DNA of 57,705 nt from Bacteroidota bacterium (lineage in GTDB: Bacteria; Bacteroidota; Bacteroidia; Bacteroidales; JACABE01): the NCBI GenBank assembly GCA_013377005.1, contig JACABE010000003.1:69036-126740 (forward strand), given 5' to 3'. The position numbers were made by a program, and so were the translations under genes. The notes under the pieces were generated by a model. That model did no database searches. It was not told where the DNA came from and saw nothing but the letters and a program-made list of their open reading frames with translations. This document shows, in pieces, positions 21,420-57,705 of the stretch; position 1 is the stretch's first letter, and every line of letters starts with the position of its first letter.

Positions 21420-21446
21420 AGGTGTAATTAACTAATTAAAGTGTGT

Positions 21447-24400
21447 ATGAGAAAGTTTTACAATTTAATATTTATTCTTTTCATTATTATTGGAACTAAC
21501 CTTACCGCTTTCCCTCAAATACCTAACTATGTCCCGTTGGGCAGCCTTAGAGCATGGTATCCGTTTGATGGAAATGCAAATGATGCAGGCGGAAATAATT
21601 TGAACGGAATTATTCATGGAAATGTAATTTCAACAACAAATAGAAATAACAATCCTAATTCAGCCTATTATTTTAGTGGTGCAGGCAATGGAGCCGATTG
21701 GATAGAAGTTCTTCATAATCCATTATTAAATTTAGGACCCAGTTTTACTGTTTCAGCATGGATTTATAACGATAATTCTAATTACGGCTGTATTGTAATG
21801 AAAGGGAGGGATGTTAGTAATGGATCTTATGATTTATATTGGGGTGGAATAAATATAAATGGTGCTGGAGGGGCAGGTGCTGGCAATATAAGTTTAATTG
21901 ATACTGCTATATGGTATATGATTACCGGTGTTTTAGATGGGAATACCGGGAAATTGAAAGTTTATAAAAATGGCGTTTTTGCTATTGAAGTTAACACAAG
22001 TCCATTTGTAGCAAACAACACTTTCTCTTTAGCTATTGGCAGGCATTTAACATATATGCCACCAAGCAATTCGGATTCATATCCTTATCCTTTTAAAGGT
22101 AAAATAGATGATGTTGGTCTATGGAACCGTGCATTATCTTCCTGTGAAATTTACCAGTTATATACAGGAATTTTAGCAAATAATCCTACAGTTAACTTAG
22201 GCAACGACACCACCCTAACCCAAGGTAGCACCTTAACGCTTAATGCCGGAAATACAGGTTCAACTTATTTATGGAGTACCAACGATACTACACAAACCAT
22301 AAATGTAAGTACGGCTGGAACGTATTGGGTAAAAGTAACCAATAGTGGAGGGTGTTATAGTGCAGATACTATATATATTGATTTTACAACTTCAACTACT
22401 ATAAATCAAATGAACGACACCACTATCTGCAAAGGTGAAAGCGTTACTTTAACGGCAAATGCAGCTGCAGCTAATACATGGCAATATTTTCAGGATTTTG
22501 AAAATACAGTGGGAAATGAATGGAGCGATACAAATAGATTAACATTTAATGGCTCAAAGAATTTAGGTTATTATGGTAATCAAACTGTAAATTTAAATTT
22601 AAGCAGTTTGCCAGCACACGATAGCGTAGAAATAAGTTTTGATTTGTATATTCATGATACATGGGATGGGAATAATTCTAATGGTGGACCAGATTTTTGG
22701 AGTTTATTTATTAATAATGATACAATTATAAATACTACTTTTGCAAATTATCCAAATTATACTCAAGCTTTCCCTCAGAATTTTCCCTCAAATAATCCAT
22801 TACAAACAGGTGCTTTTCTAACAAACTTACCAACCAGATGTTTTTATAATTGTGGTACATCTTTATATAAAATCTCAAGAACAATCTTTAATGTAAGTAA
22901 TAACTTACTAATTAATTTTTACGGAAATCCAATTGAAAATATTTGTAACGAAAGCTGGTCAATTGACAATGTAAAAGTAAAACTTTTAAATGTAAATGCT
23001 ACACCACAATATTTATGGTCAACCGGAGCTACCTCAGCTTCTATTACTGTTTCACCTAATCAAACAACTAACTATACAGTAACTGTTACTAACGGAGCAT
23101 CTGTTTTAAAAGATACGACAACAGTTTATGTATTAAATCCGCAGATTAGTTATGGATTACCAACGAATAATTTGCAGAAAAAAATATTTTATCTTAAAGG
23201 TATAACATCACCTTATAACATATATTCTGCCAATATTAACGGAACAGGAGAAACATTAATAGCAACAGGAGCCATTGATGCAAGTTTTGGCAACAATAAA
23301 ATTGCTTTTCATAATGGTTCGGATGTTTATATCGTTAATAGCGATGGAACCAACCTGACAATCGTTCCCAATACTAATGATAACCTATACCAACTGGATA
23401 TTTCAAAAGATGGAACAAAAGTATGTTATGCAGCAAATGATAAGCTCTTTACCATAAATACAGATGGAAGCAATAAAACATTGTTTAACAATGGAAGTTT
23501 AACCAACGAACATCAAACCCGTCCTTCATGGAAAGAAGCAGGAAAAATATATTTTGTAATTTCCAACTATGGAAATGCATATACACAAAAAATATATTCA
23601 AAACCAGACAATAATGCGAGTGCAACTCCAACACAATTAACTACTGTATTCGGACAAAATCCGATATCAGGAGGTATTGGCAACAAAGTTACATACAATG
23701 GCACCACCGGGGCTTTATACATTATGAATTCTGATGGCACTAATGTTTCTCAATTAACCAACGCAGGGAATATTGCATGGGGAGGTGTATGGGATGCCGA
23801 TACAATTTATTATACCAGTAATGGAAATATCGGAAGAATAAGAAGTAATAATACGGATAATTCGATCATTATAAATGATGGGAATATCATAAAAGTTATC
23901 GGAGTAAACATTCCTGATTTTGTGGCCAATACACACGATACAACGATATGCAAAGGAGAAAGTGTGATTTTAACTGCTCATGGCGGAAGTCAGCAAAATA
24001 TTTGCAATAAATCTCAATTACCAACCAATCTGCAACAAGGTTTGGTTGCTTTTTACCCTTTCTGTGGCAATGCCAATGATGAAAGCGGAAGTGGACATAA
24101 TGGAGTTGTAAATGGAGCAATACTTACTACAGATAGGTTTGGCAATGCGAATAGTGCGTATTTATTTAATGGGGTGAATAATAAAATAACAGCTGATACA
24201 CTTCCAATATTAAATCAATATTTTTCATATTCATGTTGGATAAAAATTAACGGGTTAACGCCTGGAATTATTCAATCTTTTGGTGGTATAGGTGGTCCTC
24301 AATCTCAATCTCTCAATCACATGTGGAATTTTTCTTATAATCCAAATTTATCAAGATGGGATTTATATGATCATACAAATGGATCATGGTACACAAATTG

Positions 24401-27206
24401 GACAGGTCAAACTTCAAGTTCAACACTTAATTGGACTAATGTAACAATTGTTTATAATAATGTAACCGAATATCTTTATGTTAATGGTATTTTATTAAAT
24501 CAGCGTACAATAGTTACTCCAATTCAGACTTTTGCAGACAGAACTCTAAGACTTAGCGAAATTGGCACTCAGTTTTTAAATGGTAAGATAGATAATATAT
24601 TAATTTATAATAGAGCTTTAAATACAAATGAAATCCAAGAAATTTATGCTTTAGGAATAGCAACTTCTGCTTCCTATCTCTGGTCAACTGGTGATACAAC
24701 CCAATCAATTACAGTTACTCCCAACCAAACTACAACCTATACTTTAAGTGTTACCAATGGAAATATAAGTTGTATGGATACCTTAGCGGTAAATGTTTTA
24801 AATCCTCAGATAAATAACGGACAGGATACCACCATTTGCAAAGGGGAATCAATTTGTTTAAATGTTACTACTGCCAATGTTATCAATCATGTTGATAGCA
24901 TTGCTAATTTTACTTATATAGGAAAATTAAATAATCATTTGTATTATCGCTCAAATTATCAAACAGACTGGCAGAGTGCTAAAATTGCCTGTCAGGCAAA
25001 GGGTGGGCATTTAGCCACTATTTCAAGTATTCAGGAAAACAATTTACTGTTTAATTATTGCAATGGCTATAGCCAACAAACATGGTTTGGATTTACCGAT
25101 GAAGTTATTGAAGGAGATTGGAAATGGATAACGGGGGAACCTGTATGTTATACTAACTGGGCTCCAGGTGAACCGAATAATTCATATGGTGGTGAAGATT
25201 ATAGCACGCTATGGTGCTCAATTAATGGTTGGAATGATGGTGATTACATAGCTCCATTTTTCTTTTTACTCGAAATTGAAAAAAATCATTATTTATGGTC
25301 AACAGGTGATACCGTTCAAAATATTTCTGTTTCACCTACTCAAACAAATACATATTCTGTTCTTGTTACAAATGGGAATACATCCTGTTCTGATACTATA
25401 ACAGTATTTGTTTCAAATCCTCAGATTAACTTAGGCAACGATACCACTATTTGTCAGGGACAAAGCAAAACTCTTACTGCCGGAAGCGGATATAGTTCTT
25501 ATCTTTGGTCAACAGGAGCAACTGCTTCACAAATAACGGTACAAAACACAGGAGCTTATTGGATAAAAGCCATAAGTAATCAGGGTTGTACAGTAAGAGA
25601 TAGCATTAATCTGACATTTCTGCCTGTACAAAGCAATATACTCAGAGATACTATTCTTTGTATGGGGCAAAGTGTAATTTTTAACCCGGGTGCGGGTTTT
25701 ACCAATCATTTGTGGTCAACCGGTGCAACAACTAATTCATTAAATGTTTACCTGCCCGGAACTTTCTGGATACAGGCAAAACAAACCAATGGATGCATGA
25801 TTAGAGATACTGTAGTTGTAAAATATGATAGTTTAAGTGTAAGCATTGCTTCTTTTGCCAATCCAAGTTGTTTTGGTGGAAATAATGGTTCAATCAATAC
25901 AACGATAAATAGTTTGTATCCTCCGTTTGCATTTTCGTGGAATACAACACCAGTACTAACAACACAAAACCTTAGCAATCTTTTGGCTGGTAATTATATA
26001 CTTACTTTTACCGATTCTTTGGGTTGTATAAAAACAGCTTCACAAACACTAACAGCTCCAACTCCTGTGGTTATTTCACTTGGCAATGATACTTCTTTTT
26101 GTCAAGGACAAAGTATTGTTTTACAGGCTACACAAGTATTTACTTCATATTTATGGTCAACGGGTGCTAGCACACAAAGCGTTAATGTAAATACTCAAGG
26201 AGCTTATTGGCTTAAAGGCACAAATGCAAGCGGCTGTAGTGGTTATGATACTATCAATATAACACTTAATCCTACTCCTATTGTTCAGATTGCACCAACT
26301 AACCCATCTGTATGTAAAGGAGAATCCATTACGCTAACAGCTTCAAGTAATTTGCTTTCTACCACTTACACTTGGAGCAATACAGCCACTACTACAACCG
26401 TAAATCTCAGTCCAACCCTAACTACTTCTTATTTTGTTATTGGAAAACTCAATCAATGTGTGGATACAGCTTTTGCAACTATTAACGTAAAACCATTGCC
26501 AATCATTTCAACAACAGCCGATAAAAATCCTATTTGTGAGGGCGAATCAACAAATTTAACAGCAGGCAGCAATATGCCTTCAACTACTTATGTTTGGAAT
26601 AACAATGTTACTGGAAATACGCTTAGTGTAGCTCCAAACAACTCAGCTTATTACTATGTAACAGGAACTGCAAGTAATTGCCACGATACTTCTGGTATAA
26701 CCATAAATGTTATTACCCAGCAGTCTATTAATTTGGGGGTTGATGATTATTTATGTGTTGGCGATGAAAAAACCTTAAATGCAAATAATCTTCTAGGGGT
26801 ATTTTTATGGAGCAACGGAACATCAGGCAATACCATGATTGTAAATGAACCAGGTGTATTTTGGCTAAGAGTTGATAACAATGGTTGTATTGCTTCTGAT
26901 ACTATTGTTTTAAAACCCTGCTCCGAAATTTGGGTGTCCAATGTATTTACACCAAACAATGATGGTATAAACGATATTTTTAAAGCAAACACCAAAGAAA
27001 TACAAAAATTTCAACTATATATTTATAATCGATGGGGGAATTTGGTTTTTGAAACCCATGATGTTAACATGGGATGGGATGGAAAATATGCAGGAGGTGA
27101 TGCACAGTCAGGAGTATATTATTGGGTAATCAGATATAATGAAAACCGATCATCCAATCAAAATGTTGAAAAAGAAATACATGGGAGTGTAACGTTGTTG
27201 AGGTAG
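21447..27206 (+). CDS. Giant T9SS surface protein (LamG, C-type lectin, Ig-like, type B C-terminus)
   Basis: The product is 1,919 residues from the ATG at 21447; an in-frame GTG lies two codons upstream. A signal peptide ends near 25. In order: a LamG-like jellyroll (~30-235, FDGNANDAGG to KGKIDDVGLWNRALS); an Ig-like unit (NDTTLTQGSTLTLNAG); a jellyroll segment (~340-520); a TolB-like propeller (~571-828, IVNSDGTNL, TINTDGSNK); a second LamG (~856-1071); a C-type lectin domain (~1147-1281, AKGGHLATISS, WAPGEPNN); further Ig-like units (Y-LWSTGA-T...) and one SprB-like unit; and the gliding-motility-associated C-terminus (~1826-1919, FTPNNDGINDIF, IYNRWGN, GSVTLLR). The C-terminus directs type IX secretion. 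Lectin and LamG domains suggest glycan binding, for adhesion or motility. Confidence 0.9.
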   Translation: MRKFYNLIFILFIIIGTNLTAFPQIPNYVPLGSLRAWYPFDGNANDAGGNNLNGIIHGNVISTTNRNNNPNSAYYFSGAGNGADWIEVLHNPLLNLGPSFTVSAWIYNDNSNYGCIVMKGRDVSNGSYDLYWGGININGAGGAGAGNISLIDTAIWYMITGVLDGNTGKLKVYKNGVFAIEVNTSPFVANNTFSLAIGRHLTYMPPSNSDSYPYPFKGKIDDVGLWNRALSSCEIYQLYTGILANNPTVNLGNDTTLTQGSTLTLNAGNTGSTYLWSTNDTTQTINVSTAGTYWVKVTNSGGCYSADTIYIDFTTSTTINQMNDTTICKGESVTLTANAAAANTWQYFQDFENTVGNEWSDTNRLTFNGSKNLGYYGNQTVNLNLSSLPAHDSVEISFDLYIHDTWDGNNSNGGPDFWSLFINNDTIINTTFANYPNYTQAFPQNFPSNNPLQTGAFLTNLPTRCFYNCGTSLYKISRTIFNVSNNLLINFYGNPIENICNESWSIDNVKVKLLNVNATPQYLWSTGATSASITVSPNQTTNYTVTVTNGASVLKDTTTVYVLNPQISYGLPTNNLQKKIFYLKGITSPYNIYSANINGTGETLIATGAIDASFGNNKIAFHNGSDVYIVNSDGTNLTIVPNTNDNLYQLDISKDGTKVCYAANDKLFTINTDGSNKTLFNNGSLTNEHQTRPSWKEAGKIYFVISNYGNAYTQKIYSKPDNNASATPTQLTTVFGQNPISGGIGNKVTYNGTTGALYIMNSDGTNVSQLTNAGNIAWGGVWDADTIYYTSNGNIGRIRSNNTDNSIIINDGNIIKVIGVNIPDFVANTHDTTICKGESVILTAHGGSQQNICNKSQLPTNLQQGLVAFYPFCGNANDESGSGHNGVVNGAILTTDRFGNANSAYLFNGVNNKITADTLPILNQYFSYSCWIKINGLTPGIIQSFGGIGGPQSQSLNHMWNFSYNPNLSRWDLYDHTNGSWYTNWTGQTSSSTLNWTNVTIVYNNVTEYLYVNGILLNQRTIVTPIQTFADRTLRLSEIGTQFLNGKIDNILIYNRALNTNEIQEIYALGIATSASYLWSTGDTTQSITVTPNQTTTYTLSVTNGNISCMDTLAVNVLNPQINNGQDTTICKGESICLNVTTANVINHVDSIANFTYIGKLNNHLYYRSNYQTDWQSAKIACQAKGGHLATISSIQENNLLFNYCNGYSQQTWFGFTDEVIEGDWKWITGEPVCYTNWAPGEPNNSYGGEDYSTLWCSINGWNDGDYIAPFFFLLEIEKNHYLWSTGDTVQNISVSPTQTNTYSVLVTNGNTSCSDTITVFVSNPQINLGNDTTICQGQSKTLTAGSGYSSYLWSTGATASQITVQNTGAYWIKAISNQGCTVRDSINLTFLPVQSNILRDTILCMGQSVIFNPGAGFTNHLWSTGATTNSLNVYLPGTFWIQAKQTNGCMIRDTVVVKYDSLSVSIASFANPSCFGGNNGSINTTINSLYPPFAFSWNTTPVLTTQNLSNLLAGNYILTFTDSLGCIKTASQTLTAPTPVVISLGNDTSFCQGQSIVLQATQVFTSYLWSTGASTQSVNVNTQGAYWLKGTNASGCSGYDTINITLNPTPIVQIAPTNPSVCKGESITLTASSNLLSTTYTWSNTATTTTVNLSPTLTTSYFVIGKLNQCVDTAFATINVKPLPIISTTADKNPICEGESTNLTAGSNMPSTTYVWNNNVTGNTLSVAPNNSAYYYVTGTASNCHDTSGITINVITQQSINLGVDDYLCVGDEKTLNANNLLGVFLWSNGTSGNTMIVNEPGVFWLRVDNNGCIASDTIVLKPCSEIWVSNVFTPNNDGINDIFKANTKEIQKFQLYIYNRWGNLVFETHDVNMGWDGKYAGGDAQSGVYYWVIRYNENRSSNQNVEKEIHGSVTLLR

Positions 27207-29555: not shown

Positions 29556-32500
29556 ATGATACCCCGTCCGCTTGCGGCGGGGAGATTCATTTCTTCTCAA
29601 AAAGCAAATTTTGAAGACAATCATTTTCATCTTCAAAATGGCTGTTGGAACTGGTCGGATAAACGTTTTGGCATTAGTCTAAATAATTCTGATACTGTTA
29701 TTGTTAAAAACAATTTTATAAATTGCTTTAATTTTGATTACGATGGTTATGGTATTATAGCATCGGGTACAAATAAAACAGTAAACATTGAGAATAATAC
29801 AATAATAAATTCTCAAAAAGGAATGAGTTTAAATTTATTACAGAATTTTGTTATTAATGGAAATACAATTGTAAACGTAAAAGACTATTTTGTACAAATT
29901 TATGGAAATAATGGGACTATTGATAATAATATTATGAATACTATTGTAGCTGGTAATGGGGTAAATTTGTTTTCGATCAATACACAGCTCAGAAAAAACA
30001 AAATAACAAAAATAATGGAGGGTAGTTGTATTGCAAATAGTGCAAACAACAACACAATTAACAACAATTATCTTCATGCCGAAGGTTTAGGTGTCGCTAA
30101 AGGAATATACAGCAATGCAGCAAATTCTTTAACTGCTTATAACAATAGTATTAATATTACTTCTGTCGATAGAATGAATGGTAAAGCTATTGAAATCAAT
30201 GGTGGCTCAGACATTACATTAAAAAACAATATTTTATCCAATAAAGAAGGAGGTTATTCGCTTTTTGTTAGTGGAAATCCAGGAAATCTGGATTTTAATT
30301 ATAACGACTATTATAGCTTTAAAGATAAATTGGTTCATTTTAATGGAACAGAATATGATTCATTATCTGATTGGAAAACAGCTTCAGGAATGGATGCAGC
30401 ATCAGTAAATTACAACCCTTATTATGAAACAGATACTTTGCTGAAACATAATCAAATGAAGTTGTATAATGCAGCAATGCAATTGCCATCGGTTACAACT
30501 GATATTTACAATACTTCAAGAGGTACAACGCCCGATATCGGTGCTTATGAATATACAAAATGCCCTGTTGATGCTGGTGTACATAAGTTTATCGGATTGA
30601 TTAGTCCTTTAACTACCGGAATACTAACACCCATAGTTGTAGAATTAGAAAATCACGGAACCTCAAATTTAACAACTGTAATCGTTAACTGGACGGTTAA
30701 TGGAGTTTCTCAATCAGCCTTTACATGGAATGGAAATTTAGCTCAAGGACAAACTGTTTATGACACAATAGGTTATTTCACATTTACTCCTGGAACTACC
30801 TATAACTTAACTGCTACAACGACAGCTCCAAATGGAGGAACAGATTGTAATAATTTTAATAATTCTGCAAGAATTACCGAATTGGGAACTCAACTTTGCG
30901 GAGTTTATACCATTGGAGGCTCAAATCCCGATTTTCTTAATTTTACAGAAGCAGCTGTAGCATTAAATAGTGGTGGTATTGCTTGTTCAGTTATCTTTAA
31001 AGTTAGAAGCGGTATTTATGATGAGCACATCACTTTAAATCAGATACAAGGAGCAAGCCCCACAGCCACAATTACTTTTGAGTCGGAATTTGGGAATTCT
31101 TTTAGTACCGGAGCTACACTTTACTACGACACTACTGATGTAAGCAATGATTATACGCTGATTTTAAACGGGACTGATTATATTCGTTTTAATAATATGG
31201 GGATACAAAGAAGTAATGGAAATGGCAATGTATTTGTTCAAAACGGCTGTAAAGATGTAAGATTTAGTAATAATTGGTTGTACAATGTTAGTGTAACTGG
31301 ACTGGATACACTATTTATATTTAAAAACAATCAATTGTCAAACAATTTTTTAATCATCAATTATTCTGGAAGCGGATATTCAAAAGATTTAAGAATCAGC
31401 AATAACAAAATAAAGAGTTTAACAATAAACAAATGTAATCTGGCAAAAATTGATTCTAATTATTTATCGTGGATCGAAGGGACTCCTCAGTTAATTAATA
31501 CATTACATATTGCGAATTCAAAAAGCATATACGTTAGTTACGATACTGTCATTGCATGTATGTATAATCCTTCTACTGTGATAGCTATTTATTCCACCCA
31601 AAATCATAATATTAATATTAAAAATTCATTTATTCAGATACCTGGGGGATGTGAAGGAGTTGGAATTCAAAGCGAATTAGACACACTAAGATATATTGAA
31701 AATAATAAGCTTTTACTTCAAAATGGTATTTGGGGTTGGTGTGGTTCAAGAAATGCTATCATGGCAAATGGAGGTGATAGTATGTATATTAAATGCAATA
31801 TAATACAGTCTCCTAATTTTGAATATGCAAGCACAGGAATTTATATTTACGACAATGCTATTCCAAACTATGAAATATCAGATAATTACATAGAATTGTA
31901 TAGAAATGGGATGATTCTAATGAATAATTCGGCTAATAATATTACGAAAAGCAATAAAATTACAAAAGTCAAAGACTTTGGCATAAAAGCAACAGGTAAT
32001 TTGGGCTTGGTTTTAAGAAATTCTATTCATAATATTGATGGTGGAATAGGTATAATAAACGAAGCTACAAATTCTAAATATTATCAAAACAGAATTACTG
32101 GAATTACAAACGGAAAAGCAATGACAAATAATGCGAATGGAATTGATATTCAAAATAATTATATGCATTCTTCAGGCAATTCACAGCCAATTGGTTTACA
32201 GTTTATTGATAATCTATCCAATTGTTATGTTTACAATAACAATATCAATATTACAGGGAATGATGCAACTGGAAGTGCTGCATTTGAAATACAGAATGCG
32301 AGCAATCTTATTGTTAAGAATAATATTTTTGCCAATCAGACCAATGGCTATGCTTTGAAAACCAATACTGCTTCAGCTTCATTTACTTCTGATAAAAACT
32401 GCTTTTTTACCTATGGTGATTTCTTGTTTAACCGAAATGGCCAAAATATACAAAAACTAAATCAATGGATTACGGCAAGTGGTCAAGATGCCAATTCAAA

Positions 32501-35500
32501 AAATATCAATCCGTTTTATATTTCTGATACAAACTTAAAAATGAATCAGATTCAACTGAATAACAATGCTGATTTTGTAGGAATTTCTTTGGATATTGAT
32601 TCTACTAGCAGAGTCTCTAACAATGATATCGGTGCAAAAGTTTTTGTGCCATGTATTAATGATGCAGGTATTGATTCAGTGGTAGGGATGATTCATAATC
32701 TTACAAGTCCAACTATGACAATAAAAGGTATTTTGCAAAATCATGGTACTGCAACCCTATCTATAGTAAATGTTTATTATAGTGTTAACTGTGCTACTCC
32801 TGTTTTGCTTAGTCTGCCGCCAGGACTACCGTTGGGTCAAGGGGCAACAATGCAGATAAGTTTCCCTATTCCATATACTTTTACTACAGCACAATCGAAT
32901 CTGAAGATATGGACAAGTTTACCCAATGGTGTTGCCGATTGCAATAATTACAACGATACCTCAATATTTAATAAAATCAGTGGACCTTTATGTGGAGTTT
33001 ATACTATAGGTGGACTAAATCCAGATTTTAACTCAATAGGAGATGCCGTTTTTGCATTAAACGGAGTAGGGATTTCCTGTCCTGTAATTTTCAGATTAAG
33101 AGATACTATTTTCAATCAGAATGTTGCAATTGGTCCTGTAAAAGGAAATAGTTTTATTAATACCATTACTTTCGAAAGAGATACATTTTTAACTACTTAT
33201 CCGGGTATTGATTATACAGTTACTGATATTAATAATGATTTTGCCTTGAGATTGGATAGTACAACTCATGTAACTTTTAGGAAATTAACGATTAATCGTC
33301 TGAATGGCAATAGGAATGTTTGGTTAAAGAATCTGAATAACTATGTTACATTTGATAGTTGTAAAGTAAATGGTCTGATAACTGATACATTGGGGGTAGA
33401 TTCTGTTTTAGTAATAAAAAATTGTGATTTTCAAAACTTTCCAATAGATATTTTTGGAGATACTAATTTAAGAATGTCGAATATATCAATAATCAGAACT
33501 ATAAACACTGGAAAATTTAGGATATATAATGCGAAAAATATTCTTGCAGATAGTTGTACTTTTAATTTTTCAGATAATAACTGGAATTTTGCAAATAATA
33601 TTTATTTTGAAAATTGTGAAAAAATAATTATCAAACGAAATAATGCTAATATTTATAATGGTAGTTTTGCTCCGTGTATTAATATGGTAAAAAGCAAAGA
33701 TATTAAAATTGAAAAGAATAATCTAACTTCAACTGTTTACTCACAGTATACCAATACAATAAATATTTCAAAAAGTAATAATATATCAATAGAATCCAAT
33801 ATTGTAAATGCAAATACAAATTATTCAACATGGCAAGTTAATCAAAGAAATGGCATATTTTTAGAAAAATCAAATGGAGTAGTTATAAAATCAAATACTA
33901 TAAACAGCAATTCATTCTATGCTACTAATTATGGTATTTTAATTTTAGATAGTGTAAATAATGTAAAAATTGAGAAGAATGAAATAAAAGGTTTTACGGA
34001 TGGAATGAGATGTAATTTACGTAGTTTGACAGATTCCATTATAGAAAACAAGGTATATAATGTTAATTCAACGGGTATTAGATTGGAAGGTGATAGTGCT
34101 GTGGTTCAGAAAAACAGAATTTTAAATTCTGCCAATATTATTGGAATTCATGTTCTAAGTGCTAATGCTAAAATTCATCAAAATAGAATTTTGAATGTAA
34201 CTGAATCGGAAGGGATAAGAGTAGAAGGAACAAAAAACCTGATAGCCAATAATTATATAAATATTACAGGTTTTGGCATTGCCAAAGGGATTGTGATTAA
34301 TTCGGGTTCAAACTATTCTAAAATCATACATAACAGTATTAATATAACAAGCACTGATATTTTAAAAGGGAAAGCTATAGAAATTAATGGTGGTGATTAT
34401 ATTGAGGTTCAAAAAAATATTTTATCAAATAAAGGTGGAGGTTATGGTGCTTACCTTAATTACAAGCCATTAGGATTAAATGCTTGGTGGGTCGATAATA
34501 ATATATACTCAACAGGTTCAAAAATTGGATATTATAATGGTATTAATTATAGTGATTATTTACTGTTCAATGGAGGACTTGGTATTGGGCCTGATTTTAA
34601 TCAGTATAATCCCTTCTATGCATCTGATACAAATTTGCTACCCTATCAAAGATTTTTAAATGGGGCTTGTACAGGTTATTCAGGAATTAACATTGATATT
34701 GATGATAAACTAAGAATGATGGGAGCTACTGATATTGGGGCAAAGGAATTTAAAGTAGATTTTGGGATAACACAAATGCTAAGCCCTTCTTTAGAGTGTA
34801 TTCATGGAAGCAATGATACTGTAAAAATTTATATTAAGCAATATGGAGATATCCCTTTTACTGATATTCCGTTGGCATATAGCATTAATGGTGGTACCGT
34901 TAATTACAGCATGATACCTGGTTCTACGTTCAATGATATTACGTTTTCTTTTCCTGTTACTATTAATATTTCCAATAATAATACCTATGTTTTCAAACTT
35001 TGGATAATAGATGCTTTTGATGATAATAAACTTAATGATACATTGATTGCCATCAGATATTCAAAACCTTCTCCGGTTATTAATTTCTCTGCACCTTTTT
35101 ATTGCGAAATGCGAAATACTAATTTCACATCACAGGCTACAGTTTCATCTCCTTATACTATTGCATCCTATCAATGGAATTTTGGTGATGGCGATTCTGC
35201 TAATATTGCAAATCCGATGCATGTTTTTGATTCAACGGGGATTTATCCGGTTAACCTGAGGGTTTATAGTTCAGCGGGCTGTTATAAAGACACTTTGAAA
35301 AATGTCATTATTCATGCAACTCCTAATGCTGTATTTGTTATGGGGTCACAATGTAAAGGTGTGCCAGTGAATTTTACCAATAATTCATCAATTAATTCTT
35401 TAGATACATTACTTTACAATTGGAATTTTGGAGACTATACCAATTCTATTCAAAAAAATCCGACACATTCTTATGCAAATACTGGTAGCATTCCTATTCA

Positions 35501-37232
35501 ATTGATTACAGCAAGTTTATTTGGATGTAAAGATACAATTTCACACAATGCAATTATTCATACTTTGCCTGTAATTCAATTGAATAAGCAAAATATAACC
35601 TGCAATGGACTTGTTGATGGAAAAATTACATCAATAGTAAATTCGGGTAATCCTTCTTATCATTATTTATGGTCAACAAATGATACAACTTCTGTGATAA
35701 ATAATTTATTACAAGGAATGTATATGCTTACAGTTACTGATTCTTATGGTTGTGTTGATAAAGATACGGCTACTATTATTCAGCCTGGAGCAATTACAGT
35801 AAATTTCAATAAAAAACCTTACGTTTGTAATGGAATGTTCAATGGCTGGATAAAAGCTATAATAAATGGAGGAACGTCTCCATTTACATACAATTGGAAT
35901 GGAGGATTAATAGGCGATTCAATAATAAATTTAAATAATGGGGTCTATATTGTAACTGTAAAGGATTCAAATAATTGTCAAAAGGTGGATAGTGTTATGC
36001 TGATACCTAAACCACAACCAAATGTGCAATTTACGCATACAGATGTATTGTGTTATGGCGATAATAATGGAACTGCTAATGTTATTGCAAATGGTGGACA
36101 ATTGCCATATAGTTATCAATGGTCAACATCACCCATTCAAACTTCTCAGAATATTATTAACCTTTTTAAAGGTAATTACATTGTAAAAGTAATTGATTCT
36201 TTAGGATGTTTAAAAACAGATTCAGTTCAAATCAGTCAACCCGATTCATTTCATTTTGCTATCACTTATACTATGCCGCTATGCAATGGTAATAGTAATG
36301 GGAAAATAGCTGTTAATACTACAGGAGCTACTTCACCTTATACATATATCTGGAATACTATACCTGTTCAAAACAATGCGATTGCTTATAATTTATCAGC
36401 TAATAATTATCAAGTTATTGTTAAAGATAGTAATAACTGTGATACTACATTGCAGCTAACTCTTAACCAGCCTTTAGTTTTAAATGTACAATCACAAACT
36501 ATTTCTCAGAGTTGTAAAAACTATTGCGATGGATTTATTACAGCATTTGCATCTGGTGGTACTCGACCATATATTTATAGTTGGAATACCTCTCCAGTAC
36601 AAACAGATTCAATAGCCAAAAATTTATGTGAAGGTGCTTATGAAGTAATTTTAAAAGATTCTAACAACTGCACACTTACTCATCAAGCTACTAATGTGCA
36701 AACCAATACACATATTTTAGCTTCATTTGCTTCAAATCCTGATCAAGGTTTCAGTCCGTTAGATGTTAATTTTGTATTTACAGGATATGGAGCAGCCACT
36801 TATAATTGGGATTTTGGAGATGGAAATACCTCTATTTTTCAAAATCCAATGAATACATTTATTGATGATGGAACTTACCATATTTTACTTATTGTCGAAA
36901 GTAGTTTGCCTGATTTATGTAAAGATACTGCTTCTTTTGAATTAATAGTAGATGCACCTTCAGAAGTATTGATACCAAATGTATTAACACCTAATGGCGA
37001 TGGGGTAAATGATTACTTTTTTATTAAAGAAAAAGGTATTGTTGAAATGAAAGTTTATATTTACAATCGTTGGGGGGTTGAAATTTATGTAATCGAAAAG
37101 CCAAAAGATAAATGGGATGGTACTTATTTAAACAACCCTGCATCTGAAGGTACTTATTTTTATGTTCTTAAAGCAAAAGGGAAAGATAATAAAGAATATG
37201 AAAAACATGGAAGTGTAACCTTGTTGAGGTAA
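29556..37232 (+). pseudogene. 3' part of giant T9SS protein 2 (beta-helix, PKD, SprB repeats, type B C-terminus)
   Basis: An ATG inside the element's right end opens 2,558 codons; native sequence starts at 29588. It lacks a signal peptide, so even if translated it should not be exported. The content continues the beta-helix, then two more modules of CARDB-like sandwich plus LCGVYTIGG-x-NPDF plus beta-helix (from ~30560 and ~32650). Two PKD domains follow (~35090-35560, WNFGDGDS and WNFGDYTN), five SprB-type repeats (~35570-36700, C-x-G-x-x-x-G ... YxWS), another PKD (WDFGDGNT) and the gliding-motility C-terminus (LTPNGDGVNDYFF, IYNRWGV, GSVTLLR). The intact ancestor was probably a ~3,087-residue surface protein. 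Confidence 0.9.
29562..29582. repeat. Right subterminal hairpin of the IS element
   Basis: CCCCG-T-CCGC pairs with GCGGCGGGG around TT, leaving T at 29567 unpaired. The unpaired base in one arm is typical of the imperfect palindromes of this family. Confidence 0.85.
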
Positions 37233-51546: not shown

Positions 51547-52929
51547 ATGAAGAAACTATTTCTATTTTTCTGCTTTTTACTTTCATCATATTTTTCCTGG
51601 TCACAATCAGATAAAATCAAGGTATATTTTAACAGACCCGTTAACAATAATTTGGCAAGTATTTCAAATGCAGTTTATCTGAATCAACTAATTGATGATA
51701 CAATAATTGCTTATATCAATAGAGCAAAATATACCTTAGATCTGGCTGTCTATAGTTTCAGTGAAACTGCTGCCATATCGAGTATAGTTGCAGCTATTAA
51801 CAATGCTTATTCTCGTGGGGTAGCCATTCGATGGATTTACGATGGAAGCAGTACTAATACTTCTCTGACATTACTCAACAGCAATATCAATAAACTGGCA
51901 AGTCCAACGTCACAATTATATGGAATAATGCATAATAAGTTTATGATTATTGATGGGAGTTCTTCTAATCCCAATGATCCCATCGTTTGGACTGGTTCCA
52001 CCAATTTTACATCTGCACAGATTAATACTGATGCCAATAATGTTGTAATTATACAGGATGCATTAGTAGCACAGGCGTATACTACTGAATTTAATGAAAT
52101 GTGGGGTAGTACATCAATAACACCAAATGCTGCAAATGCTAAATTCGGACCTGATAAAACAGATAATACAACTCATATCTTCAATGTTGGTGGTGAAATA
52201 CTGGAAGTTTATTTCAGCCCTTCTGATGGTACCAATTCAAAAATACAGCAAGCCATCAGAAGTGCTGATGTAGATATGTATTTCGGTGTTTATTCATTTA
52301 CTGTCGCCGTTGATGCCGATTCAATTAATAAAAGAATACAAAATAATGTATATGTAGCAGGAATACTCGATCCAACCAGTCAGTCGTATCCGCCTTATAC
52401 CACATTGAGTAGTTCAATGGGAACTAATCTGATAAAAGATATACTTACCGGATTGTATCATAATAAAATGCTTATTGTTGACCCATCAGCACCAGACTCT
52501 GATCCATTGGTATTAACAGGTTCTCATAATTGGTCTGCTTCAGCTGATACCAAAAATGATGAAAATACAGTAATTATTCATAGTGCTAACATCGCCAATG
52601 TTTATTATCAGTCATTTTATCAGAATTTTACAGATGAGGGGGGTACACTTAATATTCAAACCGGGGTTAATGCTTTTTCAAATCAAACAGGACTAAAAAT
52701 TTACCCCAATCCGTCAAACGACAGAATTTTTATTTCTGATGCTACAGATTATCACATAACTAATCTGAAAATTATCAATATACAAGGAAAAATTGTAAAA
52801 GAACAGCTTTGTTGTCAACTTAAAGATTCTGTTTTAATAAATGTACAGGATTTTCCAAATGGTATTTACTTTATTCAATTACAGACTAACATAGGTATTA
52901 TTACCGATAAGTTTATTGTCAACAGATAG
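51547..52929 (+). CDS. Secreted phospholipase D-like protein with T9SS type A sorting domain
   Basis: The 460-residue product has a signal peptide ending near 20 (SSYFSWSQ) and two PLD (HKD) motifs: His129-x-Lys131-x4-Asp136 with GSTN at 150-153 (MHNKFMIIDG), and a second near 305 (YHNKMLIVD, then GSHNWS). The C-terminal ~85 residues are a T9SS sorting domain (LKIYPNPSNDRIFIS, IKIINIQGKIVKE-like, FPNGIYFIQL). Both HKD motifs are intact, so it should be an active phosphodiesterase. Secreted relatives act as nucleases or lipases; nuclease is more usual for this architecture. A -7-like TATTTTTG lies at 51505-51512. Confidence 0.85.
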   Translation: MKKLFLFFCFLLSSYFSWSQSDKIKVYFNRPVNNNLASISNAVYLNQLIDDTIIAYINRAKYTLDLAVYSFSETAAISSIVAAINNAYSRGVAIRWIYDGSSTNTSLTLLNSNINKLASPTSQLYGIMHNKFMIIDGSSSNPNDPIVWTGSTNFTSAQINTDANNVVIIQDALVAQAYTTEFNEMWGSTSITPNAANAKFGPDKTDNTTHIFNVGGEILEVYFSPSDGTNSKIQQAIRSADVDMYFGVYSFTVAVDADSINKRIQNNVYVAGILDPTSQSYPPYTTLSSSMGTNLIKDILTGLYHNKMLIVDPSAPDSDPLVLTGSHNWSASADTKNDENTVIIHSANIANVYYQSFYQNFTDEGGTLNIQTGVNAFSNQTGLKIYPNPSNDRIFISDATDYHITNLKIINIQGKIVKEQLCCQLKDSVLINVQDFPNGIYFIQLQTNIGIITDKFIVNR

Positions 52930-52995
52930 TATTATTTTTTTTCTTTATACAACCTTTTCTTCATTTACTGACTCTTTAAATAAAATAGCTATAAG

Positions 52996-53547
52996 TTGGA
53001 AGTAATTGTAAGCCCGGCATACAATCTGAGTGTTGAAGAACTGGATTTGCTTGAAGGTTGTCTGAATAAGGATCGTCTAAAGCAAAAAAGGCTTTATTAT
53101 AAATATTGCGATGCAATGTTTACATTGGCGTACCGTATTCTCAACAATCATGATGAAGCCAATGATGTACTACAAGATGCGTTTATACAAGTATTTCAAA
53201 AAATTAATCAATTCAAAAGACATTCATCCTTAGGTGCATGGATAAAAACTATCGTTATTAGAACTGCCATCAGACATTTTAAGAACCTTCAGCTTTTCGA
53301 TACATATCAACAGGAAAAACATGATTCAGTACACATAAACTCGCAGGAGATAGATGGGAAGATTCTCGAAAAAGTAATTCTATCGCTACCGGATGGCTAT
53401 CGTACTATTTTTATACTGGCTGAAGTGGAAGGCTACAAACATAGAGAAATTGCCGAAATACTCAATATATCAGAAGGAACTTCAAAATCTCAATTATTTA
53501 ATGCAAAAAAAATATTGAAAGAAAAACTTAAAAACGAATACTTATAA
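52996..53547 (+). CDS. ECF-type RNA polymerase sigma factor
   Basis: The 183-residue product starts with TTG (a stop lies four codons upstream in frame and no ATG occurs before residue 40). Region 2 is visible as YRILNNHDEANDVLQDAFIQVF, quoted here as NNHDEANDVLQDAFIQVF, then FKRHSSLGAWIKTIVIRTAI; region 4 as LPDGYRTIFILAEVEGYKH and REIAEILNISEGTSKSQLF. Regions 1 and 3 are missing, as in ECF factors. It directs RNA polymerase to specific promoters, and release from an anti-sigma partner is usual. The next gene overlaps its stop codon (TAATG), which shows translational coupling. Confidence 0.92.
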   Translation: MEVIVSPAYNLSVEELDLLEGCLNKDRLKQKRLYYKYCDAMFTLAYRILNNHDEANDVLQDAFIQVFQKINQFKRHSSLGAWIKTIVIRTAIRHFKNLQLFDTYQQEKHDSVHINSQEIDGKILEKVILSLPDGYRTIFILAEVEGYKHREIAEILNISEGTSKSQLFNAKKILKEKLKNEYL

Positions 53548-55058
53548 TGGAAAATTATTCAAATAAAGATTGGTCTAATCTACCCACTCATAAGCCCGAT
53601 GCGGATTTATGGGACAGGATAGATACTGAGCTTGACTTGGAACAAGTTTCCAAAAATTTAGGGCAACTTCCCAAGTATTCGCCTAAGCTTAATCTATGGA
53701 AATCTATACATTCAAAATTATTTTTTTATCAGAATCTTAATTATTTTTATGCTGCAGGTATTGGCATTACTGCAATTGCATTATTTTTTATTTTTATTAA
53801 TACATTCAATACAGAACCTAAAATCAAACAATCCAACTTAGTACATGAAGAATTATCTGCAAATCAACGCAATTACAATAAGCAAGATGGTTTAAGTTTA
53901 AAGAATACAAATGCTTTTATTGAAGGTAAAGGATTATTATCCAAACCAGTTCAGACGAAGATATTAAATGTATCTGAAAACATCAATTCTATTAAGCTAC
54001 ATAAAAAAGTAAAAACTTTAAATACTATAAAAATACTTAGAAAACTGAATGAAACAGCACAACTGCCAAAAGATGAAAAGAAACAAATAATCAATGAGCA
54101 AATAAGAGAAAAAGACAAACCACTATATATTTCCGATATCACCGAACAAACTGTTGTAGAAAATTTAAACAAAGAACAATTACATAATTTGATACAAAAA
54201 GAACACGAAAATAAAAGAGATGAAAATACAAAACTACCTATTTCTTTAAGTTCGGATACTAACCAAAATATTACGGAAACTATTAATAACAATGATATAA
54301 ACGGAATAGACCCTAAAAGAATCAATCTTAAATCTGCCAATATTCCGGTTAAGAAATCATTATATTCTGTAGGAATAGACTATACTTTCAGCAAAATATA
54401 CAATGCTGAAAAGTTTTCATACTCAGATAATAAAACGTTAGGACAATATGGCATTAGTCTAAAATATAATTATTCAAGCTGGATAATGCAAACAGGGTTT
54501 AATTATAGTAGATTTTCAGATAATTTTACTTATAACTCCGATCAAAAACAAATTTTATACGAATCATTCAATTATGTGGATTCTGTAATTTATAATTCAC
54601 AAGGAAATATAATTCAATATATAACTCATCCTGTGAGCCTTAAAGATAGTATTTTGTTTCAGCAATTGATTAAAACAACAAAAAAATATTCTTTGTTAAA
54701 TATACCCTTAACTGTTGCTTATCAATATGGATTCGGCAAAATCTTTGTTTCATTAAAAGCAGGTATTTTATGTTCTTTCATTATATCTGAAAAAGAAACA
54801 ATGGTTCTACCAGATAATGCTTATACTTCTGTATTGAAAATTTATACAGAGCATTCAAACATTAATAAAACTAATTGGGCCGGGCTTTTATCCATAGAAT
54901 TCGATTATCATTTAAACAAATACTGGGGTATTTCTGTTGAACCAACAATGCAGTATTATTTTAAACCACTATATAAAGAAATGGATATCAATACTAACTT
55001 AAATAATCTTTCTCCTTATTTGATCGGGCTAAAAACAGGATTATTCTATAAATTTTAA
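53547..55058 (+). CDS. Putative trans-envelope anti-sigma protein with outer-membrane-barrel-like domain
   Basis: The 503-residue product has an unusual layout. The N-terminal ~62 residues are presumably cytoplasmic and contain two related motifs (LPTHKPDADLWDRIDTEL at 12-29, LPKYSPKLNLWKSIHSKL near 41-58). A membrane helix follows (~67-87). A highly charged Lys/Glu/Asn linker runs to ~265, long enough to cross the periplasm. The last ~230 residues look like a beta-barrel: SVGIDYTFSKIYNAEKFSYS, YGISLKYNYSSWIMQTGFNY, ending LIGLKTGLFYKF with a terminal Phe. It overlaps the sigma gene by one base, as anti-sigma genes do. A short cytoplasmic tail after a TM that binds sigma is the inference. Confidence 0.7.
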   Translation: MENYSNKDWSNLPTHKPDADLWDRIDTELDLEQVSKNLGQLPKYSPKLNLWKSIHSKLFFYQNLNYFYAAGIGITAIALFFIFINTFNTEPKIKQSNLVHEELSANQRNYNKQDGLSLKNTNAFIEGKGLLSKPVQTKILNVSENINSIKLHKKVKTLNTIKILRKLNETAQLPKDEKKQIINEQIREKDKPLYISDITEQTVVENLNKEQLHNLIQKEHENKRDENTKLPISLSSDTNQNITETINNNDINGIDPKRINLKSANIPVKKSLYSVGIDYTFSKIYNAEKFSYSDNKTLGQYGISLKYNYSSWIMQTGFNYSRFSDNFTYNSDQKQILYESFNYVDSVIYNSQGNIIQYITHPVSLKDSILFQQLIKTTKKYSLLNIPLTVAYQYGFGKIFVSLKAGILCSFIISEKETMVLPDNAYTSVLKIYTEHSNINKTNWAGLLSIEFDYHLNKYWGISVEPTMQYYFKPLYKEMDINTNLNNLSPYLIGLKTGLFYKF

Positions 55059-55070
55059 GAAAATTCAGAT

Positions 55071-57128
55071 ATGGTTGAAAAAAAAATACCTTTTATTTTA
55101 GCTTTTTTACTGCTTGCATGTACTGCTGTATTTCCTCAAGGCAATATGAATTGGGATTGGGTTAAAACTGCAGGTGGTTTGCAATCCCAAAAAGCTACTT
55201 CCATTGCTGTTAATAATAATGATGTTGTTATTGCTGGTACATTTAACAGTAATTATATTTCTTTGGAGAGCAATATTGTGGTTCTTACTAATAGCGATTC
55301 CAACAGTTTTACGTCTAATTATTTTGTTGCTAAATACAATCAAAACGGACAAGTTATTTGGGCCAAAAAAGCTTTCTCTAATGTAGGAACCTCTTCTAAT
55401 AAAATAGTGATCGATAACAATGGCAATATTTATGCTTGTGGATTTATAAATACTACCAACGGAATTAATACTATATCTTTTGATGGAGCTAGTTCATACA
55501 CACATACTGGAGGAAAATCATTTTTAACGAAATACTCGCCTCAGGGTTCAACTCAATGGGTGTTATTTATCAATAATAAATTTTGGGGTTACGATACTAT
55601 TTCAAGCTTAAAATGGGATAGAAACACCAATTCATTATTAATTGCTGGTCATTGTTTGGGCGATACGGTTGGTATTGGGAATATGAATATTATAAATTCA
55701 GGGAATAATCTGCATTCATCATTTGTTGCAAAAATTGATGTTCAGCAAGGGAATGTGGTTTGGATTAGCAAAACTAAAGGAAATTCATTTATCAATAAAA
55801 TAAATGAAATTGCGCTTGATACAAGTGGATCAATCTACACTGCTGCTTCATTTTTGGGTTCCTATCTTGTTTTATCCCCGATAGATTCATTAGTTAATTC
55901 TACTTCATCAGCTGGTGCTTTGTTTTATGATGGATATTTTGCAAAATACAATAAAAATGGAGTGTTGCAATGGTGCAAAAAAGGAATATGTAATTCGGAT
56001 GATGAAATTACAGCCATAACTTGCAGGAATAATAACCATTTAGTAATAGGAGGGTACAATAATTCAACATTACTTTTAAATAATGGTGCTTCATTAAACG
56101 GCAAAAATTTTATATTAGAATACGATCTACAGGGTAACTTTGTAAATGCAGCAAATTTCACTTCTACAATAACATCAATAAGTGCTTATAAATCTGGAAG
56201 TGGTTTTGTAATTGGAGGGATATTTACTTCAGATAGTTTGATATTTGGAAACACAATTTTACATAAACACAGCACTCCGAGTTTGTTGAATACCAACATA
56301 TTTATATGTCGTTCCGATTCTTTTGCGACTTATAATAATGCTATTGCAGCCGGAGGATTTGCATCCTGCAATTTAAATAGTGTAATAGTAGCCGATTCTA
56401 ATAAGCTTTATGCTTGCGGCTCATTTAATCAACCATCCATTAACTTTGGAGCAATGCAATTTAATTCTCATGGAATTACTGATTTATTCCTGACCAAACT
56501 GGATGCTGGAATTTCGCCACCCATTCCTTTAAAATACAATATGGGAGGAACTGTTTTTGTAGGTTCAATGCCTGTAGACCATGCAATGGCTTATTTATAT
56601 GAAATGAATCATAGTATTATAGATAGTTGCAAGATTGATACTATGGGCTTTTATCAATTTTATCAGAAACCAATGGGAAACTATAAAATAAGTGCCGAAG
56701 TACTTTCTAATTCAATTTATTTTAATCAAAATTACAGCGCCACATTTTATCCTAATAAAACGAGTTTTGCTGATGCAGAAACAATATTGCTTAACACTAA
56801 CAGATGGGAACGAAATATACAATTGCAAAATACAAATACTGTTGATGAATCAAATACTAATTTGCAAAATTTAGTTATATTGAAAACCTATCCGAATCCT
56901 GCAAAGAATGATTTGGATATTATTGTTGGAAATAAGTTTTTAGGAGATTGTAAGATGATAGTAATGAACACAAACGGGCAATTAGTTTTGACGAAAATAT
57001 GTAATAATGAATCAAACACTGAGATGATTCATCTAAATATATCTTCACTCAAACAAGGCTTGTATCATTTGATTTTAATTGATAAGTTGGGGAATTATGG
57101 TAGTTCAAGATTTGTGAAAACTGAGTAA
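55071..57128 (+). CDS. Secreted propeller-like protein with T9SS type A sorting domain
   Basis: The 685-residue product has a signal peptide (FILAFLLLACTAVFPQ, cleavage near 23; a Cys inside the hydrophobic core makes a lipobox possible but less likely). The body has repeats of the SBBP kind: NYFVAKYNQNGQVIWAKK, IVIDNNGNIYACGF, SFLTKYSPQGSTQWVLF and YDGYFAKYNKNGVLQWCKKG, typical of propeller-like surface proteins. A carboxypeptidase-like segment (GGTVFVGSMPVDHAMAYLYE near 500) and a sorting domain (LKTYPNPAKNDLDIIV, MIVMNTNGQLVLTK, SLKQGLYHLILID) follow. It starts 12 bp after the putative anti-sigma gene, so it is likely part of the same operon and may be a target of that sigma factor. Confidence 0.85.
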   Translation: MVEKKIPFILAFLLLACTAVFPQGNMNWDWVKTAGGLQSQKATSIAVNNNDVVIAGTFNSNYISLESNIVVLTNSDSNSFTSNYFVAKYNQNGQVIWAKKAFSNVGTSSNKIVIDNNGNIYACGFINTTNGINTISFDGASSYTHTGGKSFLTKYSPQGSTQWVLFINNKFWGYDTISSLKWDRNTNSLLIAGHCLGDTVGIGNMNIINSGNNLHSSFVAKIDVQQGNVVWISKTKGNSFINKINEIALDTSGSIYTAASFLGSYLVLSPIDSLVNSTSSAGALFYDGYFAKYNKNGVLQWCKKGICNSDDEITAITCRNNNHLVIGGYNNSTLLLNNGASLNGKNFILEYDLQGNFVNAANFTSTITSISAYKSGSGFVIGGIFTSDSLIFGNTILHKHSTPSLLNTNIFICRSDSFATYNNAIAAGGFASCNLNSVIVADSNKLYACGSFNQPSINFGAMQFNSHGITDLFLTKLDAGISPPIPLKYNMGGTVFVGSMPVDHAMAYLYEMNHSIIDSCKIDTMGFYQFYQKPMGNYKISAEVLSNSIYFNQNYSATFYPNKTSFADAETILLNTNRWERNIQLQNTNTVDESNTNLQNLVILKTYPNPAKNDLDIIVGNKFLGDCKMIVMNTNGQLVLTKICNNESNTEMIHLNISSLKQGLYHLILIDKLGNYGSSRFVKTE

Positions 57129-57296
57129 ATCATATCATTAATAGCAAAATGAAATAACCATTTATAAAATTTAAATACATTGAACTGTTTTTTATTGTAA
57201 TTTCACATCTTCAAAAAAATATTTTAAACCCGATGCAACCTTTTTTTGCTTTATAGTCTCTTTAATGTAAATAAAAAATCAATAATAATTTATACC

Positions 57297-57705
57297 ATGA
57301 AAAAGAAAATTTTACTTTTATGTTTTGCATTTTTTAGCTTGTTTTCTTTGCAGGCACAAAATGCTTTCTTTGTTGCAGGTTATGTGACCAATTTAAATGG
57401 AGCCGCTATTAATAATCATGCTGTTTATATTATGTCTGATAGTAGCTCTTCCGTTATTCCCGTTATTTATGCAACGGCTAATACAAATGCAAACGGTTAT
57501 TATTCTTTTACATTTACAAATGTTCCAACTTCTGGTACTTTGGTTAATTTTCATGTTTATACTTATGATTGTAGTGGAAATATTCATGTCATTACCATTA
57601 CCAATGCTAATCCTCAGCAGAATGTAGCTAATTTTTCTATTTGTAATGGAACAACAAATAATTGCCATGCTAATTATTCTTATTATTCAGATTCTGCAAC
57701 TGCTG
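57297..57705 (+). CDS. Exported protein with carboxypeptidase-like domain, 3' partial
   Basis: An ATG at 57297 opens a frame that runs to the window end (136 codons visible). The signal peptide is clear (MKKKILLLCFAFFSLFSLQAQ, cleavage after residue 20-21). Residues ~24-105 follow the CarboxypepD_reg-like pattern: FVAGYVTNLNGAAINNHAVY, then ANTNANGYYSFTFTNVP. After that comes NGTTNNCHANYSYYSDSATA, which looks like the start of a PKD-type domain of the kind with Y-x-Y-x-x-D. It is probably a T9SS cargo, but its C-terminus is outside the window. The 168-bp gap before it contains no clear promoter. Confidence 0.85.
   Translation, partial: MKKKILLLCFAFFSLFSLQAQNAFFVAGYVTNLNGAAINNHAVYIMSDSSSSVIPVIYATANTNANGYYSFTFTNVPTSGTLVNFHVYTYDCSGNIHVITITNANPQQNVANFSICNGTTNNCHANYSYYSDSATA

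Follow-up and report, generated by a model that had tools for sequence, protein, structure and literature searches.

An extracytoplasmic function (ECF) sigma factor with a membrane regulator, EcfO of Bacteroides fragilis, was reportedly described in the phylum Bacteroidota by Ndamukong in 2013. In PMC13088901, the EcfO system is cited beside the Dma family of Bacteroides thetaiotaomicron. According to the same paper, cells that lack Dma1 produce more vesicles because repression of the ECF sigma factor Das1 is relieved, and when Dma2 is lost, the rise in vesicles requires Das2. The Dma layout described in that paper comprises an adjacent ECF sigma gene, an N-terminal sigma-side region, one transmembrane (TM) helix, a long disordered tether, and a C-terminal barrel. 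A gene pair with these features was found in a 57,705-nucleotide stretch of DNA from a Bacteroidota bacterium (GTDB lineage JACABE01, order Bacteroidales; assembly GCA_013377005.1, contig JACABE010000003.1, positions 69,036 to 126,740, forward strand), which is referred to below as the window. The favored reading, to which we assign a probability of about 0.8, is that the pair consists of an ECF sigma factor and a Dma-type anti-sigma factor tethered from the inner to the outer membrane, and that a change at the barrel would free the sigma factor for transcription of genes encoding cargo of the type IX secretion system (T9SS). A first-pass annotation of the window had proposed such direct signaling from a barrel to the sigma factor, with no separate TonB transducer. 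The layout part of that idea agrees with Dma, and the barrel is predicted. The idea is not new, since PMC13088901 already describes an anti-sigma layout that runs from the inner to the outer membrane; by analogy, the window pair is counted here as a further Dma-type system.

The sigma gene (52996..53547, + strand) encodes 183 amino acids (aa) from a TTG start and matches Pfam Sigma70_r2 and Sigma70_r4_2 above their cut-offs, with E values of 3.6e-13 for region 2 and 3.4e-16 for region 4. No ECF21 model is among the Pfam and NCBIfam matches listed (for NCBIfam, the best 25 of 99). The sequence TAATG (53545..53549, +) holds the stop codon of the sigma gene and, overlapping it by one base, the start codon of the anti-sigma candidate (53547..55058, +), a protein of 503 aa ending in Phe that was delimited by its open reading frame (ORF), its orthologues, and a structure model. 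Twelve bases further on, a gene for an exported 685-aa protein begins (55071..57128, +), and all three genes lie on the + strand. These ORFs and the overlap were confirmed where the first-pass annotation had placed them. Full-length orthologues of the 503-aa protein occur in three genomes of the same genus (46 to 53% identity), each directly behind its own sigma gene, and the sigma orthologues in these genomes are 79 to 80% identical to that of the window. A homologue search of 59 genomes, including the window's own, yielded 19 matches in 13 genomes, and a sigma gene stands immediately upstream of 15 of the 19 (L019 to L028 and L030 to L034). The co-occurrence of sigma-barrel pairs that had been suggested as a check is thus seen in four genomes of the genus. 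Because three full orthologues each follow a sigma gene and because the N-terminal motif described below is found far more often than in shuffled sequences, the arrangement is judged not to be due to chance.

The 503-aa protein begins with two LPxxxPxxxLW motifs, LPTHKPDADLW at residues 12 to 22 (53580..53612, +) and LPKYSPKLNLW at residues 41 to 51 (53667..53699, +). Residues L12, P13, P17, D20, L21, and W22 are identical among five aligned proteins, and the W51 column is at least 90% identical across 90 sigma-linked proteins. A single TM helix at residues 66 to 84 (53742..53798, +) follows this N-terminal region, with a hydropathy peak near residue 66 and a helix at residues 48 to 87 in the structure model; a weaker second hydropathy peak at residue 395 falls within a barrel strand. 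The next segment, residues 87 to 257 (53805..54317, +), is predicted to be a long, intrinsically disordered periplasmic tether, since the AlphaFold predicted local distance difference test (pLDDT) score is below 50 at residues 87 to 208 and 222 to 258. The two motifs, the single TM helix, and the terminal Phe had all been noticed in the first reading of the sequence, which had put the linker at about 180 residues; measured here, it has about 171. No match to a class I anti-sigma Pfam family was found in the 503-aa protein at E values up to 10, a result with which a distant relationship is compatible.

Residues 258 to 503 (54318..55055, +) are predicted by the AlphaFold model and a fold search to form an OmpA-like outer-membrane beta-barrel. 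The model was built on 18 sequences and has a mean pLDDT of 62.4, which is low because of the linker; from residue 261 on, 20 of 25 ten-residue blocks score at least 71. Nine strand elements are present and are read as eight barrel strands plus one short extra strand. The fold matches include NspA (Z score of 16.5 over 154 residues; root-mean-square deviation of 2.7 Å), the OmpA crystal structure 1bxw (Z score of 16.2 over 166 residues; 3.1 Å), a modeled OmpA entry (Z score of 16.8), and the further eight-stranded barrels OprF (16.1) and OmpW (15.6). Differences in Z score of less than 1 count as ties, and NspA, OmpA, OprF, and OmpW are therefore tied. The barrel-like appearance of this domain, suspected from the sequence, is borne out by the model and by the matches to OmpA and NspA at Z scores of 16 to 17. 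A soluble periplasmic domain, named beforehand as the outcome that would tell against the idea, is rejected because the model and the fold search both give a barrel of the outer-membrane type.

According to PMC7406223, class I anti-sigma domains adjoin only 6% of Bacteroidetes ECF genes, and the explanation suggested there is disrupted gene order or regulation by other means. The N-terminal motif of the 503-aa protein was followed in two sets of proteins encoded directly downstream of related sigma genes, neither of which is a random sample. The first set was based on the best 80 of 581 loci from a sigma-alignment scan of named genomes; nearly all of these are labeled as Bacteroidota groups, and one (L042, on a 4.8-kb contig) is labeled Thermoanaerobaculia. 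Six of the 80 loci lacked a next frame (L075, L081, L085, L104, L107, and L114), and that of L101 has just 93 aa. The remaining 73 proteins and 17 from other searches make up the set of 90, that is, 94 downstream proteins minus L005 to L008, which by look belong to other sigma types. For the second set, 118 genomes were drawn evenly from the phylum, and sigma matches were present in 60 of them. This set started from 90 loci (30 plus the next 60 by E value), with the window's own genome and one stop-holding frame excluded, and was reduced to 84 by removal of L186, without a next frame, and of L148, L196, L208, L213, and L214 as duplicate, short, or unrelated.

The W adjoining the TM helix is at least 90% conserved in the alignment of the first 90 proteins, and its column reaches at least 90% again in the second set of 84. 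In total, 155 of the 174 sigma-linked proteins carry W-x2-[IVLMF]-x3-[LIVMF] before the TM helix, compared with a mean of 20.8 and a maximum of 31 in 200 shuffles. At least two copies are present in 31 of 90 proteins of the first set and in 7 of 84 of the second. A TM helix was detected by hydropathy in 158 of the 174, and its N-terminal side is the more positive one, as expected of a cytoplasmic side, in 133 of these 158. Because the W motif recurs, sometimes repeated, across sigma-linked proteins, the two motifs of the window protein are considered to be real and part of a repeat unit. The W motif is thus a concrete candidate for one of the other regulation modes suggested in PMC7406223, limited to the sigma subgroup searched. 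One example is a Saprospiraceae anti-sigma candidate (L045:5483-6475), in which six W-motif copies alternate with FDF-type segments over an N-terminal array of about 200 residues; this array could hold several sigma molecules.

The genes behind the pair encode T9SS cargo. The 685-aa protein carries a T9SS type A tail at residues 607 to 672, recognized above cut-off by PF18962 (E value of 6.2e-9) and TIGR04183. Its gene comes next after the 503-aa gene in all four genomes of the genus, the orthologues being 51 to 66% identical over the N-terminal residues (about 495), and the type A tail is above cut-off in all three whole copies scanned (the window and genomes G002 and G003). The propeller-like character earlier ascribed to this protein was not reached in the window copy (SBBP, E value of 0.025, below threshold) and was reached in the G002 orthologue (24.8 bits versus an SBBP cut-off of 20.5). 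The start of a further exported cargo gene lies at 57297..57705 (+) and continues beyond the window. It was identified by its identity to the genes in the same place in G003 (63%; 873 aa) and G002 (48%; 975 aa), whose products both match PKD domains and the type A tail above cut-off, and it is present in all three genomes whose contig extends that far (the window, G002, and G003).

Before the sigma gene lies a promoter-like site, CAACC-N18-TCTTTA (52950..52978, +), which occupies the same position in an alignment of all four genomes of the genus. A second site, an exact match to this pattern, precedes the next T9SS cargo gene (57236..57264, +); the alignment also shows it in G003 and, with a single base altered, in G002 (three of three genomes compared). 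Among 169 sigma genes, 11 have the strict pattern between -200 and +30, including 7 from outside the genus. A relaxed version, AACC-N17-19-TNTTTA, was found for 15 of the 169, compared with 5 for the reverse control and 1 for the inside-gene control, both of which cover the relaxed version. The evidence for the site is its position and conservation in the sequences compared, not its count, and the putative regulon, if the pattern is a promoter, would be small and local. The proposed search for a promoter motif before T9SS cargo genes therefore gave a site common to the sigma gene and the next cargo gene, and this site and the conserved gene order support the suggestion that the downstream protein is regulated cargo. 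Elsewhere in the window, a PLD-domain protein with a T9SS type A tail is encoded just 5' of the sigma gene (51547-52929); it is present in G002, and other genes occupy this place in G001 and G003. Two very large frames, at 21441-27206 and 29556-37232, carry T9SS type B tails, and the first also has LamG-like stretches.

In the favored reading, the cytoplasmic N terminus, with its two PxxxWxxIxxxL copies, would hold the sigma factor, the TM helix would cross the inner membrane, the disordered tether would cross the periplasm, and the OmpA-like barrel would fix the distal end in the outer membrane. Some change at this barrel, whether ligand binding, failed assembly, a pull on the tether, or cleavage, may then release the sigma factor. 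From the CAACC-N18-TCTTTA sites, the released sigma factor would transcribe the genes of its own group (sigma, anti-sigma, and T9SS cargo) as well as the T9SS cargo gene that comes next. Several observations weigh against this reading. By sequence, the barrel has a weak Pfam match below cut-off (PF13505, E value of 0.0098) and no NCBIfam barrel match, so that neither collection gives a barrel match above cut-off in the 503-aa protein. Four of the 19 homologue matches do not display the pair. L029 lacks its start, and, judged by look, L035 and L037 resemble FecR-type loci and L036 an ordinary exported barrel. The promoter pattern was derived from the sigma upstream regions themselves. Its strict form occurs 5 times in the whole genome versus 6 times for the reversed control, which is chance level, and this count was discarded as evidence; in the window, 3 matches were found with one mismatch allowed, versus 1.6 expected.

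Alternatively, the barrel may only anchor the protein passively, or it may sense its own assembly in the outer membrane and report failed insertion or envelope damage rather than an outside ligand. The tether is long and disordered, as a leash would be, and relatives swap the barrel for other modules while the motif and the TM helix are kept, which implies that no fixed ligand site is required. However, the block YVDSVIYN.QG.IIQYITHP, placed by strand order at the predicted outer tip between the third and fourth strands, is well conserved in the four same-genus proteins and suggests more than anchoring, and we consider this explanation possible but somewhat doubtful. Regulated cleavage is common in anti-sigma pathways, and the 503-aa sequence is compatible with cleavage near the TM helix, by which the barrel would be exported alone, no continuous link would remain, and the N terminus would act as a plain anti-sigma factor. 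This is unlikely, however, given that the TM helix is not N-terminal and begins at residue 66 behind the conserved motif region.

FecR-like TonB-dependent systems are common in Bacteroidota as well, and in the window's own genome the sigma gene L009 has, by look, a FecR-like neighbor, which raises the prospect of surface signaling through a separate receptor encoded elsewhere. For the window pair this was rejected as highly improbable, since no FecR match was found in the 503-aa protein by the Pfam search at E values up to 10 and the next gene in all four genomes encodes T9SS-tailed cargo or its orthologue, not a receptor. A Dma-type anti-sigma factor spanning from the sigma factor to a barrel remains the preferred reading for the pair.

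Among the relatives of the 503-aa protein, the outer end appears to be exchangeable. Pfam counts of outer domains, taken at E values up to 0.01 and thus partly below curated cut-offs, gave OMP_b-brl_2 in 19 proteins of the first set, OMP_b-brl in 14 (overlap between the two is possible), CHU_C in 8, LamG in 1, and a type A tail in 1; the second set gave OMP_b-brl_2 in 18, OMP_b-brl in 12, CHU_C in 3, Plug in 3, and YfbK/VWA in 2. The three second-set frames that match the Plug domain of TonB-dependent receptors perhaps represent another outer module. L223, L230, and L235, guessed by look to be Plug-domain members, were dropped because none matches Plug. Two sigma-linked proteins of the window's own genome, L002 (G000:C89) and L010 (G000:C7), have no barrel and end at the very C terminus in a type B sorting domain, with CHU_C E values of 8.1e-22 and 8.2e-18, respectively, and TIGR04131 matches, all above cut-off; their sigma genes lie 8 and 6 bases upstream. 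From the sequences, such relatives seem to have replaced the barrel by the sorting domain of exported surface proteins. By hydropathy, the first membrane segment starts at residue 52 in L002, at 49 in L010, and at 64 in a third protein, L032, and because it comes so late, behind the conserved region, the three were not classed as ordinary T9SS cargo.

When a type B tail model was trained on 11 other tails from the window's own genome, with L002 and L010 excluded, it recovered L002 (1.7e-18) and L010 (2.3e-25) and, besides four L010 orthologues, found 10 more sigma-linked cases, the weakest being L210 at 3.3e-6. With L032 included, 13 of the 174 sigma-linked proteins are T9SS tailed. In a FastTree phylogeny of the sigma factors with 186 rows, in which 67 of 183 inner branches are weak, the T9SS-tailed state needs five changes, three of them forced by starred branches. 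Full-length orthologues of L010 (42 to 55% identity) occur in G001 to G004, with a sigma gene upstream of each. By eye, their motif region is better conserved than the linker, and synthesis of L010 as plain cargo from a downstream start is therefore disfavored. The L010 gene order is sigma, anti-sigma, M16 peptidase (Pfam), and type B cargo (CHU_C E value of 1.2e-12), and by look it is repeated in G002, G003, and G004; the G001 contig stops earlier. L010 itself sits between two peptidase genes, the downstream one being M16 by Pfam and the upstream one a peptidase gene by look.

L032 of G002 (L253:3495-6221) is a paralogue of the window pair, with 43% identity over residues 5 to 112, in which the barrel is replaced by a LamG lectin domain together with a type A tail (TIGR04183 above cut-off, PF18962 below). 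Its lectin is 72% identical over 215 residues to that of a secreted LamG protein encoded next to it, and by this comparison the anti-sigma gene has apparently captured part of the neighboring cargo. The fusion is known from G002 only, and no second one was seen in G000, G001, G003, or G004. A weak candidate in the window's own genome (C28; stop interrupted, 25% identity) was rejected as an exported LamG protein with no sigma gene in the 4 kb read.

At four further loci (L092, L096, L098, and L102), the T9SS-tailed anti-sigma candidate is directly followed by a gene for a large type B cargo (E values of 1.3e-21 or better). Type B cargo is thus next at four of four T9SS-tailed loci of the set compared that have a co-oriented next gene, against 2 of 35 other loci, a comparison in which type A cargo may be undercounted because the type A model rests on six tails; since the four loci are near relatives, they are close to one event. 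L057 and L106 are T9SS tailed and have no co-oriented next gene. The AlphaFold model of L106, made with five relatives, has a mean pLDDT of 47.5, with only the last 85 or so residues at 70 to 86. The T9SS translocon protein SprA occurs in all 12 genomes with T9SS-tailed candidates; this was discarded as evidence because 29 of 30 sample genomes also have SprA, G099 and G103 belonging to both genome sets.

According to PMC10202324, type B substrates need a PorP/SprF-family protein for their secretion, and this protein is proposed to be their surface anchor; a type B tail could for that reason fill the role that the barrel has in Dma. The T9SS-tailed forms would then dock on the secretion system. 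We tentatively propose, at somewhat less than even odds, that these proteins are modular anti-sigma leashes with an interchangeable outer anchor. The T9SS-tailed form would be a tethered cargo decoy held on the secretion machine or on a surface anchor (PorP/SprF-like barrels for type B), and T9SS engagement or pull would decide whether the sigma factor is released to make more cargo. If the outer modules (barrel, T9SS domain, or lectin) are truly exchangeable, a leash made of one polypeptide could report outer-membrane insertion, secretion, or a surface ligand. The T9SS-tailed form in particular could let the cell sense its own secretion and offers a test bed for how cargo production is matched to secretion. 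An N-terminal Sec signal peptide is described in PMC10202324 as common to all T9SS effectors, a statement with which the T9SS-tailed form would conflict, and an uncleaved internal TM helix would set it apart from those effectors. No earlier report of T9SS-tailed anti-sigma factors, the doubled motif, or the T9SS cargo neighbors was found, judged by titles and the openings of abstracts, in the open-licence texts searched, which did not include the first Dma paper.

In FecR-type systems, the receptor and the anti-sigma factor are separate, whereas the window protein joins both ends in one chain. The two have in common that an outer-membrane signal would reach a cytoplasmic ECF sigma factor, as set out for FecR-type systems in PMC9249621. 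PorA of Porphyromonas gingivalis (PMC7712824) resembles the T9SS-tailed candidates in being a protein with a T9SS C-terminal domain that takes part in regulating an ECF sigma pathway (PorXY-SigP), but it is a separate outer-membrane protein with a proposed sensor-kinase route and no TM anti-sigma factor. Unlike Dma as described, the window protein has a doubled N-terminal motif and a T9SS cargo gene next to it, and in close relatives T9SS sorting domains take the place of the barrel.

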